From Rhizobiales bacterium dw_265 (GTDB taxonomy: Bacteria > Pseudomonadota > Alphaproteobacteria > Micropepsales > Micropepsaceae), in assembly GCA_018449595.1 (NCBI GenBank), contig JAAVUU010000001.1:1178001-1242000 (forward strand): a DNA stretch of 64,000 nt, written 5' to 3'. The notes beneath the pieces were generated by a model. It was not told where the DNA came from and did not search any database. It was given only the letters and a program-made list of their open reading frames with translations. This document shows positions 13,012 to 62,688 of the stretch, in pieces. The position numbers were made by a program, and so were the translations under genes. Positions within the stretch are counted from its first letter, which is position 1, and the number at the start of each line of letters is the position of its first letter.

Positions 13012-16000
13012 TCAGTTGAGGCGAACTTTCAGTCCGGCCGTGAAAGTGCGGCCGACAATGTCCTCGTAAGGAACGGCCGGATAATTCATTCCCGGGCTGC
13101 CGGTGTAACCGGGAACCTGGAAGATGTCGGGCTGGGCATCGAGAAGGTTGGAAACATCGAGGAAGACCGTGAAGGGCGCAATGTCATAGGCGATGTTGAC
13201 ATCGGTCTGGAACCAGGCCGGCAGGTCGCCCGTGGACGGTGCATATATTAACGTGGGGTTGGGATCCTGGCGGATGGAACCGTAATAGCGCTCCATGACG
13301 TCAACGCTCAGACTGTCGCCGGTCCAGCTCGCCATCAGCACGCCCTTATCGGCTGGCAGCGCCTGGGTCGGCGCATTGGCCGAACCCGCAACATCGGTGA
13401 TCACCGAGCCGGGCAGGCCCAGCGTCTTCAGGAAGGATGTGTGGGTCCAAAGCAGGCGCAGACTCAACTGCCCCGAAAGTCCGTGCCAACCGTCCAGGCT
13501 GCCTTGCCAGTCCGCCTCCAGATCCACGCCTTCGGTCCATTGGCTCTGGAAGTTCAAGGTCTGCGCGTAATAGAGGGTGGGGAAATTGGTCGGCAGAGTG
13601 CTGTCGTAGGAGAGCGGCCGCTGGATCAGCCCGCAATAGGGCGAGGAACCGTCCGACGCCAGGCACAGCGACTGCACCACCGGATTGGAGCCGGCGATCA
13701 GCGCGATCTCGCGGTCGATGGCGATGTGGAAATAGTCGGCGCTCAGATGCAGGCCCGCGAGCCAGCCCGGATCGTAGACCAGGCCGATGGTGGTGTTGCG
13801 CGCCACTTCCGGCTTGAGCTTCGGATTGCCGATCGAGGCGGTGTTGATCGAGCCCGACGCGCCGGTCAGCGGGTCCAGATTGCCGGACGTGGTGGTCAGC
13901 GGGCCCTGGAACATATCCCATAATGTCGGGGCGCGAATGTCGCGCGAGCGCGTGGCGCGCAGCCTGAGATCGTCTGTCACCCGCCATTCGGCGCCCAGCT
14001 TCCAGGTGCTGGCGGCGAAGCTGGTCTTCACCGGCACGCCGCTGGCCGGGTCGATGCCGCCGGCATGATATTCGGTATAGCGGGCCGCGGCATTGACCGA
14101 CAGCAGCGCGACGCCGGGCAGGTTCCTCAGCAGCGGCGCGTCCAGTTCCAGATTGGCCTCGCTGACATTCTCCGAGCCCTGCGCGCCGGATTGGACTTCC
14201 TTGAAATTCGCCAGGTTCGTGGGCGGAAAGGTGCCTTGCGGCGATGCCGCGGTCGCCGCGAAGGTGCCCGGCGGGGCCAGGCGCAGATATTGCGGATTGA
14301 AGCTGTTGTCCGGTGTCGAGGTGCCGACATCCAGGCTCGCCAGCCGGTATTCCACGCCCATCGCCGCCTTGATCGGGCCGGCCCAGCCCGGCAGTACTGT
14401 GCCGGTGATATTGGCGCTGAGATCGTCCAGCCCGTTATGGGCGACCCACCAGGTGGTTCCGGCGACATAGTTCAGCGCCGCCTGCGAGGCGTTGGACCCG
14501 TTCACCACCGTGGCGCTCTGCCCGAACAGGTTCAGCGGCACGCAGCCGGGAAAGGCGCCGGGATCGGTCAGGCTGACATTGCAGACGATATTGCCGGTGG
14601 CGGGGTCCTTCACGGCATCCAGCGCCGCATAGAAACGCGCCGTGTTGACATTGTTGCGCGCGGTGAGCTGGGTGCGCGTCTCGCCATGGGTATAGTTGGC
14701 GTCCCAGGTAAAATCGCCGAAAGCGGTGCCCTCAAGCCCCGCGCCGATCGCCAGGGCGCCGGTGTGCTGGTCCAGGCTCAACCGGCTCATCAGGTCGTTG
14801 TCCATGCGGTTCATCTGGAAGCTGGCAGGGCCGCCGGGCGGGAACAGCAGCGCCTGGGCCTGGGGCGTGAGGAAGGCGTTGCCGCTGTAGATAGTGATGG
14901 GATATTGCGCGCCCGAACCGTTGGTGGTGAGGCCCGAGCCATTGATGTTGGTGAAGATCTGGCCCGCTTCATAGCTGCGCGCCTGGGCGTAGCGCGCTTC
15001 GACATGGGCGGTGACGCTGTCGCCAAGCCGCTGGCTGTAATAGGCGAAGCCCTGGGCGTTGGTGAAGGCGGGCAGCAGATATTCATTATGCTCGATGCCG
15101 CCATCGCCGCCGATGGAGAAATTCACCGTCGGCGTCGGCGTGCCGGGATTGAACGGCGCCAGGCTGCCGTTGCTGAGGAATTGCAGCCCCGTGCCCGGTC
15201 CCGACACGATCAAGCCGCCCGGCGCGGTGTTGCTCTGGCGGATGTTCTGCACCAGGTAATAGGGACTGGCGGCGGTGCCGGCGCCCACGATCGCGGTGCC
15301 CAGGTTGCCCAGCGGCCGCGCCGCGGCATCGGGCAACGCATCACGCTGCCGGTATTCCACGCTCCAGATCAGATGGCCGCGCGCCCCGACATCCTCGCCG
15401 CCCGCCACGCCGCCATAAAGCGAGCGCGCATCGCCATAACCGGAGATGCCGCCCTGCGCCACCGCTTTCAGCCCCTGGAAATCGTGATCGAGGATGAAGT
15501 TCACCACCCCGGTCACCGCATCGGAGCCATAGACGGCGCTGGCGCCGCCGGTGACGACCTCCACCCGCTGCATCAGCATCTGCGGCAGCATGTCGACATC
15601 CACCGTGGTGTCGAAGAAGGTGCCCGGCACGCGATGCCCATCCTGCAGGATCAGGGTGCGGATGGCGCCCAGGTTGCGCAGGTTGAGGAAATAGCCCGGC
15701 GCGTTGCCGCCGCGCCCATTGGCGCCGGTGGTCGCATTGTTGGGCGTGGACGCGGCCATGAAGATCGGCATCTTGTCCAGCGCCTCGGGGATGCCGCCCG
15801 GCGTGGTGGCGAGAAGCTGGTCGGCCGCAAGCTGGGTGACCGGCGAGGAGGGATCGTTGCCGCTGCGGATGCGCGATCCCGTCACCACCACCTGCTCCAC
15901 CGCGGACGCCATCTCGGGCGGGCGCGCATCGCGGGCGATCGCCACCGCGCCGGCCCCGTCGCGCTTGGCCGAGGCGCCGCTGCCTTCCAGCAGCGCATCC

Positions 16001-16227
16001 AGGGCGCGATCCGGCGGCGCATCCTTCACCGCATGGCTGGCAAGGCCCTCTATCTCATCGACATTGTAGATCAGCTGCACGCCCGACTGGCGGATATAGG
16101 CGTCGAGCGCGTCTTTCAGGGGCTCGGCGGGGATGGTCAGCGGCGTCTGCGCCCAGCCGCAAGCACCCAGCGCGAGCCAGGCCGCGCCGGACAGAATCGC
16201 ATGGCGAATCCACAGATGCCTCAACAC
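13012..16227 (-). CDS. TonB-dependent receptor with STN domain (tandem copy A)
   Basis: Outer-membrane TBDR of 1071 residues. A signal peptide (ending near GWAQ) is followed by an STN domain, about residues 28-97 (LTIPAEPLKDALDAYIRQSG, QLIYNVDEIEG), then the plug (VEQVVVTGSRIR, LILQDGHRVPG, VTGGASAVYGSDAVTGVVNF) and a long barrel ending FTAGLKVRLN. The STN domain implies it can signal to the FecR encoded 90 nt upstream. Apart from STN it is highly similar throughout to the receptor at 9877-12942. The ATG at 16227 is the first in-frame start and gives a proper signal peptide. Confidence 0.94.
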   Translation of the reverse strand: MLRHLWIRHAILSGAAWLALGACGWAQTPLTIPAEPLKDALDAYIRQSGVQLIYNVDEIEGLASHAVKDAPPDRALDALLEGSGASAKRDGAGAVAIARDARPPEMASAVEQVVVTGSRIRSGNDPSSPVTQLAADQLLATTPGGIPEALDKMPIFMAASTPNNATTGANGRGGNAPGYFLNLRNLGAIRTLILQDGHRVPGTFFDTTVDVDMLPQMLMQRVEVVTGGASAVYGSDAVTGVVNFILDHDFQGLKAVAQGGISGYGDARSLYGGVAGGEDVGARGHLIWSVEYRQRDALPDAAARPLGNLGTAIVGAGTAASPYYLVQNIRQSNTAPGGLIVSGPGTGLQFLSNGSLAPFNPGTPTPTVNFSIGGDGGIEHNEYLLPAFTNAQGFAYYSQRLGDSVTAHVEARYAQARSYEAGQIFTNINGSGLTTNGSGAQYPITIYSGNAFLTPQAQALLFPPGGPASFQMNRMDNDLMSRLSLDQHTGALAIGAGLEGTAFGDFTWDANYTHGETRTQLTARNNVNTARFYAALDAVKDPATGNIVCNVSLTDPGAFPGCVPLNLFGQSATVVNGSNASQAALNYVAGTTWWVAHNGLDDLSANITGTVLPGWAGPIKAAMGVEYRLASLDVGTSTPDNSFNPQYLRLAPPGTFAATAASPQGTFPPTNLANFKEVQSGAQGSENVSEANLELDAPLLRNLPGVALLSVNAAARYTEYHAGGIDPASGVPVKTSFAASTWKLGAEWRVTDDLRLRATRSRDIRAPTLWDMFQGPLTTTSGNLDPLTGASGSINTASIGNPKLKPEVARNTTIGLVYDPGWLAGLHLSADYFHIAIDREIALIAGSNPVVQSLCLASDGSSPYCGLIQRPLSYDSTLPTNFPTLYYAQTLNFQSQWTEGVDLEADWQGSLDGWHGLSGQLSLRLLWTHTSFLKTLGLPGSVITDVAGSANAPTQALPADKGVLMASWTGDSLSVDVMERYYGSIRQDPNPTLIYAPSTGDLPAWFQTDVNIAYDIAPFTVFLDVSNLLDAQPDIFQVPGYTGSPGMNYPAVPYEDIVGRTFTAGLKVRLN

Positions 16228-54821: not shown

Positions 54822-55940
54822 ATGCTGCATCCGACACGCCGCGACATCATCGCCGGCGCTTGCGCGCTGCCTCTGCTGCCCGTTGCGGCCAACGCGAATG
54901 CCGCGGGCCTGCGCGTCATCTTGTTGGGCCAGTCGCTGATCCAGCAGGATTTGCGCGCCCAGGCATGGCCCGGCTTCGCCCGCTTCCATGAGATGTTTCG
55001 CGGCGCCGACGCCTGTTTCACCGATCTGGAAACCGCGATCCGCGGGCCGCATGGCGGCACGGTGACGCGCGATCCCAAGCTGTTGCACCTGGCCGATGCG
55101 TCGGTGATCGACTGCCTGGATGATATGGGCGTCACGCTCTACACCACCGCGAGCAACCATGCCTTCGATGTCGGCAGCGGCGGCATCGTCGATTCCATCG
55201 CGGCACTGAAGACGCGCAACGATCCGTTCGCCGGCACCGGACTAACGCTTGCCGAGGCCGCGGCGCCCGCCTACCGGACATCGCGCAACGGCACGGTGGC
55301 GGTCGTGGCGGCGGCGACCGGCAAGATTCGCGAAGGCGGCGCCGCCACCGCCACGCGGCCGGGTGTCAACGAGATACGGCGCGACGCCTCGGGTGCCCTG
55401 AACGAAGACGACGTCGGGCGCATGCTCGCGGCATTGCGCGAGGCCGCGTCGCACGCCGATGTCGTGCTGGCCTATGACCATAACCATTATTGGGAGCCCG
55501 ACATCGCCACCGTCCCCGCCTGGCAGAGGGATTTCGCGCATCGCTGCATCGCGGCGGGCGCGACCTGCTTTGTCGGACATGGCGCCCCGCTGCTGCAGGG
55601 CATCGAGATCCATCGCGGCAAGCCGATTTTCTACGGCCTGGGCAATTTCATCTACCAGTCGCCCTCGCCCGACAATCCCTATGGCGATCCCACCTGGAAG
55701 AGCGTGATTGCCGATGTGCAACTTTCCAGGGCCGGACTTGTTCACGCCTCCCTGATTCCGATCACGCTGAATGCGCAGGGAACAGGGGGCGCCGGGGATC
55801 TGGTTACCCGCGGCAGGCCCGATCTGGCGTCGCCGGCCGACGCCGGGAAAATCCTGCATGACCTGGACGCGGCCAACGCCCCGTTCGATACCCGGATGCA
55901 AATTCACCAGGGTATCGGACGAATTGATGGAGCCGCATAA
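54822..55940 (+). CDS. CapA-family (PGA_cap metallophosphatase-like) exported protein
   Basis: Protein of 372 residues. The N-terminus PTRRDIIAGACALPLLPVAA looks like a Tat signal (twin Arg). The CapA/PGA_cap domain shows RVILLGQSLIQQDL, ACFTDLETAIRG, TLYTTASNHAFDVGSGGIVD, VLAYDHNHYWEP, CFVGHGAPLLQGIEIHRGKP and FYGLGNFIYQSP; these are the conserved metal-binding positions (the family usually has N-H-x-x-D and G-H-x-H-x; here the last reads GHGAP). CapA proteins take part in poly-gamma-glutamate capsule export or are phosphoesterase-like enzymes; which applies here is open. It is divergent from the TBDR and has no capB/capC neighbours, so capsule synthesis is unlikely. Confidence 0.85.
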   Translation: MLHPTRRDIIAGACALPLLPVAANANAAGLRVILLGQSLIQQDLRAQAWPGFARFHEMFRGADACFTDLETAIRGPHGGTVTRDPKLLHLADASVIDCLDDMGVTLYTTASNHAFDVGSGGIVDSIAALKTRNDPFAGTGLTLAEAAAPAYRTSRNGTVAVVAAATGKIREGGAATATRPGVNEIRRDASGALNEDDVGRMLAALREAASHADVVLAYDHNHYWEPDIATVPAWQRDFAHRCIAAGATCFVGHGAPLLQGIEIHRGKPIFYGLGNFIYQSPSPDNPYGDPTWKSVIADVQLSRAGLVHASLIPITLNAQGTGGAGDLVTRGRPDLASPADAGKILHDLDAANAPFDTRMQIHQGIGRIDGAA

Positions 55941-56123: not shown

Positions 56124-56810
56124 TCAGCCGGGCTGTACCTTGTACAGGCCGGTTTCGCCCTGGACCACCAGGTTGATGGTGCCCAGTATCCCGCGTGAAA
56201 TGATGACCACATAGGATTCGGCGGGCTTGTTCCAGTGCGGATAGCGCACATCGCCGGGCATTTGCCTCCAGACCTGCCCGTCCGCAAGCGTCACCGTAAA
56301 GCGCCCGCTTGCATCCTGGCTGTAAGACCTGAGCCGGGCCTTCAAGCCTTCGCGCGCGCCCAGAAACCAGCTGCCGGACGGCAGTTCCGCCGCCGCTCCA
56401 GCCGGCGATGCCGCGGCGGCGGCCTGTTGTGCGTGTTGCGGCGCGGGCGCCAAGCCCAACAGCAGACGCATGGGCTGGGCAGCACCATAATAGCAGTCCA
56501 GCCAGCCATGGCCGTCGCCGTCACAGCGGCCCGCTTCCCGGATAACCGCATCGCGCACCGCCTGGTCCTGCGGCGTTCCCGCCGGAGGATTGCCCGCGAG
56601 CCGGGATTGAACGCCCGTCACCGGCGTCAGGCCCAGCGCCGCGCGGATGGGCTGGGCGGCGCCGTAATAGCAGTCCAGCCATTGGCGTGACGGGCCTATC
56701 GCCCCGCAGCGATAGGCGCCCGCCATCACGTCATCGCGCGGCCGCGCCTGCGCGGGCGGTATCGCGGCAACCGCCAGACCGGACAACAACAACCAGCACG
56801 GCTTGCGCAT
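56124..56810 (-). CDS. Secreted protein with two CYYGAAQP repeats
   Basis: Exported protein of 228 residues. The signal peptide ends near PPAQARP. Two similar motifs follow: Cys35...WLDC47YYGAAQP and Cys96...WLDC106YYGAAQP, each continuing with R-x-x-LGL-x-P. Four cysteines could make two disulfides. A low-complexity Ala/Gln/Pro linker (about 121-142) leads to a C-terminal beta-rich domain (SGSWFLGAREGLKARLRSYS, VTLADGQVWRQMPGD, VVIISRGILGTINLVVQGET) like one seen at the end of many sphingomonad and caulobacter secreted proteins. The function is unknown. It is the third gene downstream of the sigma/FecR pair at 61164-62688. The ATG at 56810 was chosen for its signal peptide. Confidence 0.7.
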   Translation of the reverse strand: MRKPCWLLLSGLAVAAIPPAQARPRDDVMAGAYRCGAIGPSRQWLDCYYGAAQPIRAALGLTPVTGVQSRLAGNPPAGTPQDQAVRDAVIREAGRCDGDGHGWLDCYYGAAQPMRLLLGLAPAPQHAQQAAAAASPAGAAAELPSGSWFLGAREGLKARLRSYSQDASGRFTVTLADGQVWRQMPGDVRYPHWNKPAESYVVIISRGILGTINLVVQGETGLYKVQPG

Positions 56811-56842
56811 CCCCGCAGCCCCTGCCCGCCGCCGGCGCGCGA

Positions 56843-57796
56843 TCAAACGATGTCTATGCGGAACACCCATCCGGCGCTGGGGCTGTTGAGGCCCGGCCAG
56901 CCCGGACGGTTATACTCGCCGGTGATCGGCCAGCCGGGATGCTCGCCGGCATCGACCCCGTAAAGCTGCCCGTTCAGCACCGCCACATCGTGCATGTCGC
57001 AGGAGCCCGGCACGAAATCGACGAACTCCAGCGGCCTGCCGGTCTTGATGTCGTACTTGATGAGCCCCGGCGTATAACCCGCATAGCCGGGCACATCCTT
57101 GCTCTGGGTGCCGTAGACCTGCCAGATGAAGCCGCCATCGACTTCGATGCCGTGCAGCCGGTCGACGCGCGCGGCCGGGAACATGAAGTCGCATTCCCAG
57201 GTCACCGGATTCATCCGGACCAGCGACTCCAGCCGGTTCGCCTGAATCCACAAGCGGCCGCCATCCGCATCTTCCCAGGCCATGCCGTGGCAGGAACCGC
57301 CATTGTCCTTGGGCCCGAACGGAATCTGGCGATGGCTGACGGTCTTGCCGTTCATGTCGGTCTGGAACACGCCTTCGACCGGCGGGTTGGTGGGATTGTG
57401 GACCGAAGCGCCATTGGCGCCGCTCCAGACAAAGCCGTTGCCCACCGCCATGCCGCTGCAATCCACGCAAGCGGTCACCACGCTTTTCAGCACCTTGCCC
57501 TTCATGTCCAGCAGCCAGGCGGTTTCGGGCGTGCTGTCATGTTTCTGCTGCTGCACCCAGAAGCCCCGGCCGTCCGGATCGGCGGTGATGGCATTGGGCC
57601 AGGACGGCGGCGTCAGGAACAGCTTGGTGGTCCTGGCCTTGCGCCGCGGCGCGGGCTTTTCGCGCATGTTGTCCGCATTGCGGCCCAGATCGTCCACCGG
57701 CGGCGCCTTGGATTGTGCCTGGGCGCCGCCCGGTGCGGCAAGCGCCGCCCCGATTCCGACCGCCGCGCCCAGAAAGCTTCTCTTATCGATATTCAT
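56843..57796 (-). CDS. Exported beta-propeller protein (Vgb/SMP-30-like)
   Basis: Protein of 317 residues. The N-terminus NIDKRSFLGAAVGIGAALAA resembles a Tat signal with Lys-Arg in place of Arg-Arg. The body has repeated propeller blades: PNAITADPDGRGFWVQQQ, GMAVGNGFVWSGANG, GMAWEDADGGRLWIQANRLE, LHGIEVDGGFIWQVYG and MHDVAVLNGQLYGVDAGEHP. This pattern fits virginiamycin-B-lyase or SMP-30-type propellers, but no lactonase metal site can be confirmed. Paired cysteines (TACVDCSG) may bind metal or form a disulfide. It lies 14 nt after the TBDR stop and is surely in that operon. Confidence 0.75.
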   Translation of the reverse strand: MNIDKRSFLGAAVGIGAALAAPGGAQAQSKAPPVDDLGRNADNMREKPAPRRKARTTKLFLTPPSWPNAITADPDGRGFWVQQQKHDSTPETAWLLDMKGKVLKSVVTACVDCSGMAVGNGFVWSGANGASVHNPTNPPVEGVFQTDMNGKTVSHRQIPFGPKDNGGSCHGMAWEDADGGRLWIQANRLESLVRMNPVTWECDFMFPAARVDRLHGIEVDGGFIWQVYGTQSKDVPGYAGYTPGLIKYDIKTGRPLEFVDFVPGSCDMHDVAVLNGQLYGVDAGEHPGWPITGEYNRPGWPGLNSPSAGWVFRIDIV

Positions 57797-57810: not shown

Positions 57811-60800
57811 CTAAAATCTTGTTCTCAGACCGACCTCGACGATACGTCCGATCGGATTGGAATTGTAACTATCATAGCCCAGCGCCGAATTGTAGAAGGG
57901 CGGATCGGTGTCGAACAGATCCTGTATGTGGGCGTATATCTCGTCGTCCCCCAGAAGCCCGGTGGTAAAGCTGTAGCTGGCATAGAGGTCGAAGATTTCC
58001 GAGGCGTGGACATGGTCGCCGCCGCCCGAGGGATTGCCGAACGGATCGCCCGTCACCGGAATGACCGAGGTCGCGGACCAGTTGCGATAGGCGCCGGTAT
58101 AGTTCATGCCCAACTGCACATAAAAGCCCGACAGGCTCCAGCCGAGCGTCGCCCGCATCTGGGTGGCGATGGACGGGAATGTCGAATTGAAGCCGTCCGT
58201 GTTGAGAACGCTGAAGGTCGGGGCGCCCGTGCCGACCTGCTGGTCGAACTTCACGAACTGGGTCACGGCATCGGTGACGGAGAAGCTGCCGAAGCCGGTT
58301 TCGAACTTGTATCCGATGAAGGCGTCGATGCCCTGAACCTTGAGGTTCAGGACGTTACGCTGGCGTTCGTCATAGGTGTAATAGGCCGTGGCCGGCAGGG
58401 AACTCAGCACCGGCGCGTTGGTGCTGTTGCCGCCCGAACCGGCGGTATAGGCCGCCAGTTGCGACGGCGTGATGCCGGCGGGATAGAGCACGATCAGCGA
58501 ATTCAGCGCCGTGGAAGCCGCGTCCTGGGCATAGAAGGGCGAGGTCACGCCGCCCAGGAATGCCGCGCTCCAATAGGTCAGGTTGACGGTAAGGCCGGGA
58601 ATGTAATCGGGGGTCCAGTCGGCGCCGACCGACCAGCTATGGCCGCGCTCGGGCACCAGATTCGTCGCGCCCTGCAACTGGACGCCCTGGTCCGTTGCCG
58701 GGATGGCGCAACTGGCGGCCGTGCAGGTCACGCCGGGCAACAAAGCGGCGTTGGGATAGGAGGCCAGCGGCAGGTTGAAGGCGGAAGAAACCGAGAGCAG
58801 CCCCGGCGGCTTGCCGATCGAATCGAGCGCCGGCGCCACGAAGGAGGTGGAATAGCTGCCGCGGGCCTTGAGACCGTCCATCACCACCCAGTTGACGCCG
58901 ATCTTGGGATTGGCGGTGGTGCCGACGTCGCTGTAATCGTCATAGCGTCCGGACAGGTTCACTTCCAGGCTCTGCACGAAGGGCACGTTCATCTCCGCGC
59001 CGACCAGCGGCACGTCCAGTTCTCCGAAATAGGCATAGTCGGTGCGCGGATACTGGAAGGCGGTGGCGGTGGAGAAGTTCGACGATGGCCCCAGCGTGCC
59101 GGCGCCGTCGGCATAGGCCTGCTCGCCCGTCTGCAGCGATTCCGCGCCCACCGCGATGCGGACCTTGCCGCCGGGCAAGGCGAAGGGCGAGCCGTCCAGC
59201 ACGATCTTGTAGTCCTGCAGCTGGTCATAGGTGTTGGACTGGCTCTGCGCCTGGCCCAGGCTTTTCAACACCGCCGCGGAGGTGCGGTTGGTGGCGGCGG
59301 GATTCCAGACATCCAGCGCATTGGCCGCGGTCAGGGGAAGCTGGGTAACGGTCGTGGTGGTGTAGGGCAGCGTCGAGGAGACGACCGGCGCGGTGCTGCC
59401 GCCGGCCGATGTCGTGCCGTTCAGGGCCAGGTAGACGCAGCCGGTGCACAAGCCGTTATAGCTGTTGGCGTACAGCCGGTCGGTGCCGATCACGGCGCTG
59501 GCGGTCAAATGGAAATTGTCGTTGATGTTCCAGTCCGCCACCGGCCGGATATAGGCGTTCTGGTTGCCGCTCATGCTGGAGCCGTAATACTGGTCGTTCG
59601 GCAGCAGGCCGGCCAGGTTGAAGCGCAACGATTCCTTGGTCGCGGCTCCGGTGAAGCCGGCCGGCACGGTGTAGAAGGGATTGGCCTGCGCCCCGGTGCC
59701 GAAGGCGGTGGCGGTGATCTGGGTGTTCCAGGGCTGCACGGTGTCGTCGCGCCGGATGGCATAGAGCAGGTCCAGGCTCAGCGAGACCGGCCCGATGTCC
59801 TGGGTGACGCGCACCATGAAATTCGAACGGATTTCGGGATCGAGAAAGTTGCCGTAGGGATTGGTGCAGGACGCGTTCGCCGCGGTGTTGGCGACCGAGG
59901 TGCCCGACGTGGAATCCAGGAAGATGTTTCCGGTCCCGTTGGGCTGCACGGTCGCGGGATAACAGTTGAAGCTGCGGAAGTTGGTGCCGCCCTGGGCGGT
60001 GAAATCGCCCTGCACATACTTCAGGCGGCGGATATTGGCGATGGAGCCCTTGTCGGAATAGGACGCCCCGATCACCAGGCCGCCGCCGTTCCATTCGGTG
60101 CCCCACAGGCCGTTGAACTGGAGCGTGCGGTAACCGTCGGAAAAACCGTATTGCCCGGTCATTTCCAGGCCCTGGAAGCGTTTGCGGGTGATGAAATTGA
60201 TCACCCCGGCCACCGCGTCGGAGCCGTAGATCGAGGAGGCACCGTCCGGCAGCACATCGACCTCCTGCAGCATGGAGACCGGCACGATATTGGGATCGGT
60301 CAGGCCGTGATTCTGTCCGTCGGACGGCATGCGATGGCCGTCGATCAGCACCAGCGTGCTGTTGGAGGCGCTGACGCCTAGCTGGTGGATCGTCGGGGCG
60401 AAGGAGGAGGAGTGCGTCGTGCCCTGGTTGATGTTGTTCATGCCGGTCAGGGACGGGATGTTGACCAGGATGTCCTGGACGTCGCCGGGCGAATAGGTCT
60501 GGATTTCCGCCGCATCGACCGTGATCAGGTTGGAGCCGACGGGCGCCAGGCCGCGGATGCTGGTGCCGGTCACGACGACGGCTTCCACGGGTTCCGCCGC
60601 CGCCGCGGCGGCGTCGTCGGTCGCCGGCGCCTGGGCATGCGCGGCGCTCGCGGCCAGGACGCTGAAAAACAAGGCCAGCACCGATGTCGAATTCTTTGGC
60701 GATATTGGCGACATTTCTTCCCTCTCCTCGTGCTTTTTTTTCGTTTCGAGCAGGGAGATCGTCACCATCCCCTCCGTCGAACGCCTGACCTTCAGGTCAG

Positions 60801-61056
60801 TCCCTTTCAGCATCAGGTCGAGAGCGGCAAAAACATCGTAGGCGCCTTTGATGGGAGGCGTGATCACGCCGTGAAGCTGGTCGCCAGGCGCTATGACCTG
60901 GATCTGAGCCTGACGCGCGAACTCGGGTATGGACCTTCCGGCATCCCCGGCGGGGACATCGAACTGCCGAACCTGGGCGAAAACGGGTGTACTGCAGGAC
61001 AGCGCAGCAATCGCAATTGCTCCGCACACCACTGCGCCTATCCTGCCGCTTCCCAC
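57811..61056 (-). CDS. TonB-dependent receptor with STN domain and an internal second signal peptide
   Basis: TBDR of 1081 residues if translated from the GTG at 61056. It has a signal peptide (ending STPVFAQ) and an STN domain (about 29-103, RSIPEFARQAQIQVIAPGDQ). A lysine/glutamate-rich stretch follows, then a second complete signal-peptide-like segment starting at an internal ATG (60714): NSTSVLALFFSVLAASAAHA. The plug comes after (VEAVVVTGTSIRG, STLVLIDGHRMPS, VLPDGASSIYGSDAVAGVIN) and a barrel ending VEVGLRTRF. An A8 run and a strong ribosome site (AGGAGAGGG) precede the internal ATG, so an STN-less 967-residue form may be made too. It follows sigma and fecR, and precedes the propeller and CYYGAAQP genes. 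Confidence 0.92.
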   Translation of the reverse strand: MGSGRIGAVVCGAIAIAALSCSTPVFAQVRQFDVPAGDAGRSIPEFARQAQIQVIAPGDQLHGVITPPIKGAYDVFAALDLMLKGTDLKVRRSTEGMVTISLLETKKKHEEREEMSPISPKNSTSVLALFFSVLAASAAHAQAPATDDAAAAAAEPVEAVVVTGTSIRGLAPVGSNLITVDAAEIQTYSPGDVQDILVNIPSLTGMNNINQGTTHSSSFAPTIHQLGVSASNSTLVLIDGHRMPSDGQNHGLTDPNIVPVSMLQEVDVLPDGASSIYGSDAVAGVINFITRKRFQGLEMTGQYGFSDGYRTLQFNGLWGTEWNGGGLVIGASYSDKGSIANIRRLKYVQGDFTAQGGTNFRSFNCYPATVQPNGTGNIFLDSTSGTSVANTAANASCTNPYGNFLDPEIRSNFMVRVTQDIGPVSLSLDLLYAIRRDDTVQPWNTQITATAFGTGAQANPFYTVPAGFTGAATKESLRFNLAGLLPNDQYYGSSMSGNQNAYIRPVADWNINDNFHLTASAVIGTDRLYANSYNGLCTGCVYLALNGTTSAGGSTAPVVSSTLPYTTTTVTQLPLTAANALDVWNPAATNRTSAAVLKSLGQAQSQSNTYDQLQDYKIVLDGSPFALPGGKVRIAVGAESLQTGEQAYADGAGTLGPSSNFSTATAFQYPRTDYAYFGELDVPLVGAEMNVPFVQSLEVNLSGRYDDYSDVGTTANPKIGVNWVVMDGLKARGSYSTSFVAPALDSIGKPPGLLSVSSAFNLPLASYPNAALLPGVTCTAASCAIPATDQGVQLQGATNLVPERGHSWSVGADWTPDYIPGLTVNLTYWSAAFLGGVTSPFYAQDAASTALNSLIVLYPAGITPSQLAAYTAGSGGNSTNAPVLSSLPATAYYTYDERQRNVLNLKVQGIDAFIGYKFETGFGSFSVTDAVTQFVKFDQQVGTGAPTFSVLNTDGFNSTFPSIATQMRATLGWSLSGFYVQLGMNYTGAYRNWSATSVIPVTGDPFGNPSGGGDHVHASEIFDLYASYSFTTGLLGDDEIYAHIQDLFDTDPPFYNSALGYDSYNSNPIGRIVEVGLRTRF

Positions 61057-61163: not shown

Positions 61164-62120
61164 CTAAAAGATTCTGACTTCGTTGCCTTTCACTTCCATC
61201 TGCAGCTTCAGCACGGCGGCGGCGGCCCTGGCGAAGCCGACCGGATCGTTCGAAGCGAAAAGACCGGTGACGGTCCTGTTGGACACATCGGGATCGACGA
61301 CGATGCGGACCTCGCTGTAGCGGGCGAATTCGCCGGCGGCATCGGCCAGGGTCTGGTTGTCCAGCGCGATGCTGCCGCGCTGCCAGGCCAGGTCGCGCAC
61401 CAGCTTCTCTTCCGGCATCGCCATCGTGACGATCGGCGCGCCCGGCGGCGCGATCGCCTGGATGTTCGCGCTGGCCCGCACCGGCAGAGCTTCCAGGGCG
61501 TCGGCACGCCGCAATTCGACGACGCCTTCCCGCACCAGGACCTGGATCGGCCTTTGCGGCAACCGGGACACCGTGAAGCTGGTCCCCACCGCGCGCACGC
61601 GCGTATCGCCCGCCGACACGATGAACGGGCGGTGCCTGTTCTTGGCGACGTCGAACAGCGCCTCGCCCCGCAGAAGGTCGATGTTGCGGGCATTGCCGGT
61701 GAACTGGACCGAGATTTCGGAATTGGTGTTGAGGGAAACGACCGAGCCGTCGGCCAGGACGACCTCCCGCATCTGTCCGATCGCGGTGGAGAATGCCTCC
61801 TGCTGGACGCCGTCGCGCAACACCGCGATGCCCAGGCCCGCCGCCAGGCCCGCCGCGCCGCCGCCGGTCCACAGGACGCGGCGCCGCGTCCAGCCGGACG
61901 GCCGCGCCGCCGCGTCGGGCGCCGAATCCAGGGCGGCGCTGTTCAGCCGCTCAAGCCGGCCGAGAACCGCTTCGGCCCGTCCGTAAGCGCCCAGGTGCCG
62001 GACATCCGCCGCGAGCCAGGCCTCAAACACGGCCTGCTCTCCGGCGGAGAGCTTTCCCAGGTCCCTTCTGGCGGCCCAATTGGCGGCCAGCCTGTCAATC
62101 TCGTGGTTTATCGATGACAT
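61164..62120 (-). CDS. FecR-family anti-sigma factor
   Basis: Inner-membrane regulator of 318 residues. The DUF4880-type N-terminus (RLAANWAARRDLGKLSAGEQ, about 10-29) is followed by a transmembrane helix at about 82-101 (LWTGGGAAGLAAGLGIAVL). The FecR domain has VVLADGSVVSLNTNSEISV, LLRGEALFDVAKNRHRPFIV and VGTSFTVSRLP, and an STN-like C-terminal domain ends KGNEVRIF. It overlaps the sigma gene by 26 nt and precedes the STN-TBDR by about 107 nt. It is the closest relative in the window of the FecR at 3012-3974. Confidence 0.91.
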   Translation of the reverse strand: MSSINHEIDRLAANWAARRDLGKLSAGEQAVFEAWLAADVRHLGAYGRAEAVLGRLERLNSAALDSAPDAAARPSGWTRRRVLWTGGGAAGLAAGLGIAVLRDGVQQEAFSTAIGQMREVVLADGSVVSLNTNSEISVQFTGNARNIDLLRGEALFDVAKNRHRPFIVSAGDTRVRAVGTSFTVSRLPQRPIQVLVREGVVELRRADALEALPVRASANIQAIAPPGAPIVTMAMPEEKLVRDLAWQRGSIALDNQTLADAAGEFARYSEVRIVVDPDVSNRTVTGLFASNDPVGFARAAAAVLKLQMEVKGNEVRIF

Positions 62121-62688
62121 TTTCCGGAAGCACCAATTCCTTTGTAGTCGACGTGTTTGCCCTGGGTTTCCCTCCCCGTCCGAACAATTTAATCAGCAGA
62201 CGCACACCGTTTGCCATGTGCTTTTCCACTGTCTTCTCGCTGATCTTGAGGCGTCGCGCCACTTCCCTTTGCGACAGGCCCTCGATGCGCCGCAAGACAA
62301 GCGTTTCCCGGCACATCGCCGGAAGCTGGTCCAGGGCGGCCGTGACGGCCCGGATCTCCTGCTGGAATTCCATTCGTTCCTCGCCATTGGCGTCCGGCTC
62401 GGGAATCTCCAGCAGTTCCAGATTGCCGCTGGAGGTGATGGACACGACCCGCGAATGCCGCACGTGATCGATGATGATCGCCCTGGCCGTGAGAAGCGCA
62501 TACTGCCTGGGATAGCGGATGGTTTCCAGCGACGGCAGGGTCAGAAACTTGGCATACATCTCCTGGATCACATCTTCCACATCCAGATCGTAAAGGCACA
62601 TGTCCCGGAGTTTCGCCCGTATCAACGCTTCATGCGGAAGCACATTGCGCGCCAGCCATCGTCCGCGTTCGCGAAAATCCTGTGACAT
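62095..62688 (-). CDS. FecI-type ECF sigma factor
   Basis: Sigma factor of 197 residues. Region 2: YDLDVEDVIQEMYAKFLTLP and ALLTARAIIIDHVRHSR; region 4: LPAMCRETLVLRRIEGLSQR and EVARRLKISEKTVEKHMANG. It shares with the paralogue at 3946-4551 the N-terminal VLPHEA motif and the unusual VVSIxS segment after region 2. It heads a minus-strand unit of sigma, fecR, TBDR, propeller and CYYGAAQP genes. The ATG at 62688 has an AGGAG-like site a few bases upstream on that strand. Confidence 0.92.
   Translation of the reverse strand: MSQDFRERGRWLARNVLPHEALIRAKLRDMCLYDLDVEDVIQEMYAKFLTLPSLETIRYPRQYALLTARAIIIDHVRHSRVVSITSSGNLELLEIPEPDANGEERMEFQQEIRAVTAALDQLPAMCRETLVLRRIEGLSQREVARRLKISEKTVEKHMANGVRLLIKLFGRGGKPRANTSTTKELVLPENVIDKPRD

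Follow-up and report, generated by a model that had tools for sequence, protein, structure and literature searches.

A signalling-receptor frame with an internal start and a predicted second signal peptide, recurrent in Rhizomicrobium

Layout of the receptor locus

The window, that is, the whole stretch of 64,000 nucleotides analysed here, carries on its minus strand a frame of 1081 codons that, in translation, stays open from GTG 61056 to position 57811 without a stop. This GTG is the earliest start codon downstream of the previous stop in the receptor frame. The frame runs in order through signal peptide 1, an STN signalling domain, a Lys-Glu-rich linker containing TKKK, a ribosome site, ATG 60714, signal peptide 2, a plug and a β-barrel, with GAGGAGAGGGAAGAA-ATG preceding signal peptide 2 (Table 1). 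Translation and Pfam bore out this arrangement, which a preliminary description of the locus had set out as far as the plug; the A8 run reported there is also present, one base off from the 60733-60740 originally given. Genes for a FecR-type regulator and an ECF sigma factor lie upstream of the receptor on the same strand.

Table 1. Features of the receptor locus, in window coordinates.
Feature	Position	Strand	Size, basis or remark
Long frame (signal peptide 1, STN, linker, signal peptide 2, plug, barrel)	57811..61056	-	1081 codons
Signal peptide 1 with GTG start	60973..61056	-	28 residues, ends TPVFAQ; read from sequence
STN signalling domain (Pfam stretch)	60754..60900	-	Pfam and family profile
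A8 run in linker	60734..60741	-	position recounted; not conserved
Internal ribosome site AGGAGAGGG	60720..60728	-	Shine-Dalgarno duplex energy -8.7 kcal/mol
Internal ATG (60714) and signal peptide 2 MSPISPKNSTSVLALFFSVLAASAAHAQ	60631..60714	-	28 residues; hydropathy, AxA
Plug domain	60202..60525	-	Pfam, 51 bits
β-Barrel (Pfam stretch)	57958..59664	-	Pfam, 44.5 bits
FecR-type sigma regulator	61164..62120	-	FecR, 76.2 bits
ECF sigma factor	62095..62688	-	overlaps FecR start by 26 bases

Both the plug and the β-barrel exceed their Pfam cut-offs. The STN match itself, at 22.5 bits (E 1e-4), does not reach the Pfam cut-off of 28.4; a family profile made from the window STN and eight relatives matches the signalling domains of FpvA, PupA-type, PupB, FoxA, HasR, FemA and CntO in the PDB, with a best E of 1.7e-12. 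A structure prediction of the segment from STN through signal peptide 2 to the plug (280 aa, six rows) had a mean pLDDT of 33.8, too low to be informative.

Elsewhere in the window, two more STN domains (15934-16080 and 2628-2849, both on the minus strand) belong to long receptor frames whose linkers are ordinary and which have FecR upstream. Downstream of the receptor, the frame at 56843-57796 (minus strand, 317 aa) matched neither Pfam nor NCBIfam, and that at 56124-56870 (minus strand, 248 aa) had no NCBIfam match. The plus-strand frame at 54822-55940 gave a match below cut-off (130.5 bits against 700) to the lasso peptide C-terminal Trp epimerase MslH.

Recurrence of the layout and conservation of the internal start

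We searched 69 genomes of the window's genus, taken to be Rhizomicrobium, with a profile spanning signal peptide 1, STN and signal peptide 2. The loci examined were part of the list, namely the full-profile matches, many STN-only matches and signal-peptide-2-only matches among the matches listed; a second pass began from STN alone, regardless of what came after it. After exclusion of three FecR matches, 111 distinct STN frames resulted, all from the genus except L053 and L155. Among the matches listed, a second signal peptide stands between STN and plug in 24 of these 111 frames, a visual assignment based on the hydropathy of the linker and on an AxA end, and in all 24 the frame is continuous through STN, signal peptide 2 and plug. 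Besides the window gene, the window's own genome has two loci with this layout (L045, G000:C1:309228-309701; L054, G000:C20:38891-39322); genome G061 has three (L131, L115 and L116) and Rhizomicrobium electricum DSM 21034 has one (L219). A plasmid collection gave seven matching records covering 40-56% of the query, none above 80%, and the two-signal-peptide layout was found in none of them.

Among the 87 remaining frames, four reach a stop within 400 residues past STN. Three of these (L201, L207 and L209) extend 126-139 residues beyond STN and have no plug; they look like other STN proteins and, as a guess from length and layout, are perhaps TonB-like energy transducers. The fourth is the broken locus L117, discussed below. 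Since all four are thus either plugless STN proteins or a broken gene, no intact stand-alone STN gene directly before such a receptor was seen among the 111 STN frames, within the matches listed.

Ribosome-site strength was expressed as the energy of the duplex with the anti-Shine-Dalgarno sequence over positions -19 to -5 before the codon, and set against that of 277 in-frame Met codons located farther along the barrel in the 28 loci under comparison. These control codons averaged -1.48 kcal/mol, with a minimum of -6.6 kcal/mol, and none equalled the -8.7 kcal/mol of the window's ATG 60714. A conserved internal start, for which the preliminary description had pointed to orthologues, was indeed found: of the 24 two-signal-peptide loci of the genus, 22 have strong internal sites (-6.0 to -12.1 kcal/mol), each beating at least 98% of the control codons, and two have weak ones (L054, -4.2 kcal/mol; L077, -4.3 kcal/mol). 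About 1% of control codons matched the sites of L134 and L122, none matched those of the other 20 strong loci, and about 10% matched those of L054 and L077. A chance purine run before the internal start was ruled out in 22 of the 24 loci by these controls. A Mann-Whitney comparison of internal sites with controls gave p 4e-16, a value that is merely indicative given related rows (the first 24, with the broken L117 in and L077 out).

The internal start codon is ATG in 23 of the 24 loci and TTG in L120, so that in L120 initiation is preserved although methionine is not. Likewise, linker residues vary by group (EEREGM, DTEGEAM, DRGETM) while the purine run persists. Upstream starts were compared in 10 loci by choosing, from several candidates, the one that yields a signal peptide of 27-31 residues, two further loci being left without an assigned peptide. 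The start so chosen is GTG at the same place in eight loci and ATG in two, and in all 10 the internal ribosome site is stronger than this likely upstream site, with a margin of 0.4-0.5 kcal/mol in L038 and L047. The openness of the linker is weaker evidence than it appears, because a purine-rich ribosome site disfavours stop codons: 164 of 3150 single changes (about 5%) create a stop, and the count, with 110 differences totalled from 12 pairs that have members in common, is limited by the fact that intact loci are without linker stops by definition.

In hydropathy, signal peptide 2 is similar to the export signals of STN-less receptors, with a best 10-residue value of 2.48 (n=16) against 2.35 (n=14). 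An AxA end is present in 16 of 16 signal peptides 2 and in 14 of 14 peptides of STN-less receptors, counts that are partly built in because the peptide ends were chosen by the analyst. Judged by hydropathy and the AxA motif, signal-peptide character is kept in the sequences compared.

Natural mutants from draft genomes, in which single stops may be errors, bear on the role of the internal start. L117 has a TGA within STN, the STN of L123 has decayed through stops and frameshifts, and L126 has only an STN-like tail before two stops; all three retain the ribosome site, the ATG and signal peptide 2. In L130, a start and signal peptide of this kind stand behind an unrelated gene. FecR is present on L117 and was not found on L123, L126 or L130. 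The pattern fits a role in which the internal start would suffice for making a receptor and the STN would be retained where FecR is retained.

Kinship of the parts, FecR context and spread beyond the genus

The two halves of the window gene have different kin. Its STN is 57-73% identical to those of ten two-signal-peptide receptors of the genus (L037, L038, L040, L041, L044, L115, L116, L131, L132 and L134), whose plugs and barrels are only 22-29% and 23-28% identical to its own; identity to the STNs of the other Rhizomicrobium two-signal-peptide loci compared is 26-48%. Conversely, the window plug and barrel are 55-57% and 34-44% identical to those of five receptors that gave no STN match; these come from seven loci, among which two pairs each represent one gene. 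Because the STN is close to one receptor set and the plug and barrel to another, the gene is, by these identities, a mosaic that combines an STN module with a receptor from an otherwise STN-less group, in keeping with the fusion of an STN gene with an STN-less receptor gene that the preliminary description had considered. Signal peptide 2 favours neither side, at 19-52% identity to the two-signal-peptide set and 25-44% to the STN-less set. On a poorly resolved STN tree (178 rows, 68 columns), the 32 two-signal-peptide rows need seven changes, at least three of them forced by well-supported branches.

Of the 33 two-signal-peptide loci that have an STN (25 from the genus, including L117, and eight from other families), 31 carry FecR no more than 900 bases upstream, the exceptions being L237 and L238. 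FecR was likewise upstream in 62 of the 73 ordinary STN loci scored, many of which have short flanks, so that sigma counts there are not comparable. On STN-less receptor loci, FecR was found in 0 of 18 (L125 and L147 left out).

Beyond the genus, 13 more loci with the layout were found in five other families of the phylum, two in the window's class and 11 in other classes; these are not frequencies, because the searches favour matches reaching into signal peptide 2. A class-wide search of 385 genomes yielded the layout in one of 28 loci (L087), and together with seven loci from a phylum search of 398 genomes (L237, L238, L239, L243, L245, L249 and L261) it was present in eight of 29. Around G762 (197 genomes), 30 loci, 23 of them with an STN frame, included five with the layout in five genomes (L266-L270). 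Twelve named loci from other genera (L222-L233; Sphingomonas-like, Stenotrophomonas, Steroidobacter and others) were also checked, and the layout was found in none. Ribosome sites outside the genus are mostly weaker, at -10.3 (L249), -7.9 (L087, GTG), -6.6 (L243, TTG), -5.6 (L245), -4.8 (L269), -4.2 (L266-L268 and L270), -3.7 (L239), -3.0 (L238) and -2.9 kcal/mol (L237), with L261 left out of the scoring.

Possible products of the frame and known systems

What these loci hold, as read from their DNA, is a single frame with a conserved internal ribosome site and start codon, a conserved second signal peptide and FecR upstream. The reading we prefer, and hold to be somewhat probable, is that this one frame with two starts would yield both a signalling receptor and an STN-less transport receptor. 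Initiation at the weaker GTG 61056 would give the full chain from signal peptide 1 through STN, signal peptide 2 and plug to barrel, a transducer able to contact the product of the neighbouring FecR gene. The stronger ATG 60714 would give signal peptide 2, plug and barrel, a transport-only receptor that would rely on this signal peptide for export. Through the two ribosome sites, one mRNA would thereby supply few sensors and many transporters, and in the long form the inner signal peptide might either pass as a linker or be cut, freeing the STN. What we infer from the layout is that the long and the short product are both made, that the former retains its STN and that sensing and transport are split between them.

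Several observations favour the two-receptor reading: the occurrence of the layout in 24 of 111 STN frames, the internal ribosome sites and their advantage over the likely upstream site in all 10 loci compared, the retention of a start codon in all 24, the mutants L117, L123 and L126, the presence of FecR at 31 of 33 loci as opposed to 0 of 18 STN-less ones, and the 13 loci outside the genus. Against it, the hydrophobic signal peptide that separates STN from plug in the long form may halt export or be cut in its course, the internal sites are weak in L054, L077 and most loci outside the genus, and the broken STNs come from draft genomes. The preliminary description had offered gene fusion, two products from one mRNA, and slippage on A8 separating an STN-only protein. 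The first two gained support, the second from the conservation of ribosome site, start codon and signal peptide 2 and their retention where the STN is broken or lost; slippage did not.

Slippage, or a base-count error, at A8 would split an STN-only protein from the receptor. The run is present as A8 in the window and in L044, and as A7 in L121; across the 24 loci, however, the longest stretch of A ahead of the internal start ranges from 2 to 8 and is at most 5 in 21 of them, and this lack of conservation makes slippage unlikely. The frame is, moreover, continuous in all 24 loci, and a one-base slip would add about 50 (base lost) or several hundred (base gained) out-of-frame codons before a stop, the shifted frames ending at codon 161, 162 or 533, not close to the STN end. 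Non-conservation and distant stops together led us to reject this explanation as very improbable. We also regard as improbable, to a lesser degree, a plain fusion with one working start, in which either the receptor comes from the internal start alone, with a marginal upstream part, or the long form is the sole product and signal peptide 2 is a leftover. The mosaic origin and the loci that have lost their STN (L123 and L126) would suit such a fusion, but signal peptide 1 and STN are conserved across 24 loci with FecR kept beside them, which speaks against a marginal upstream part, and conservation of signal peptide 2, its start codon and ribosome site speaks against a leftover.

A cut polyprotein deserves more weight, although we think it unlikely. 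Signal peptide 1 would export the long product and signal peptidase would cut it at the end of signal peptide 2, leaving a free or signal-peptide-2-anchored STN and a normal receptor; the free STN would then act on FecR as proposed for the released FoxA signalling domain, and the internal start would merely add receptor. The kept signal-peptide character of signal peptide 2 agrees with this, and the proposal gains weight because FoxA is reported to occur in two forms, with the signalling domain proposed to be cleaved off, and because that domain, when overproduced, protects the anti-sigma factor (PMC11637429). On the other hand, a segment behind an already exported domain would not face signal peptidase in the usual orientation, and an internal ribosome site and start are needless for cutting, yet are conserved in the genus. 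A combination appears to us similarly doubtful: the upstream start would make an STN that signal peptidase frees as an anti-sigma ligand, while the internal start would make the transporter. If true, one frame would yield sensor and transporter as separate proteins, and no periplasmic protease of the sort proposed for FoxA would take part.

The preferred two-receptor reading bears on the balance of sensing versus transport and on whether a sensor domain must leave its barrel, two questions of cell-surface signalling (PMC11637429). A natural gene that seemingly encodes both forms, repeated in the genus and in five other families, makes both questions testable. In practice, automatic annotation may choose just one of two real starts. 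Among the titles and abstracts listed by our searches of an open-licence library, we found no description of an internal start or a second signal peptide in an STN receptor.

The nearest parallel for the internal signal peptide is Bradyrhizobium FbcH, a cytochrome b/c1 precursor that is cut at an internal signal peptide. The window gene likewise places an internal signal peptide before a second protein in one frame; in FbcH, however, a membrane protein precedes that peptide, whereas here an internal ribosome site stands before it, as does an exported domain that bears a signal peptide itself. The cytoplasmic end of the upstream part that characterizes FbcH would be absent, as this part has a signal peptide and a periplasmic-type domain, from which its location is predicted.

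With the FecA, FpvA, PupB and FoxA transducers, the window gene shares an N-terminal STN, plug, barrel and FecR and ECF sigma genes next to it. For signalling domains of this kind, direct contact has support from the PupR-PupB structure (PMC7186176). The window gene differs from the FecA type in having a second start with ribosome site and signal peptide in place of a plain STN-plug linker. In having two in-frame starts it resembles dual-start genes such as CheA and InfB, from which a longer and a shorter product arise (PMC11005335). The short forms of OmpX and PagC are described in that paper as being without a signal peptide, whereas here a signal peptide follows each of the two starts, so that export would be expected for both products. 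Relative to FecA-type transducers and dual-start genes, the new point is this predicted export signal at both starts.
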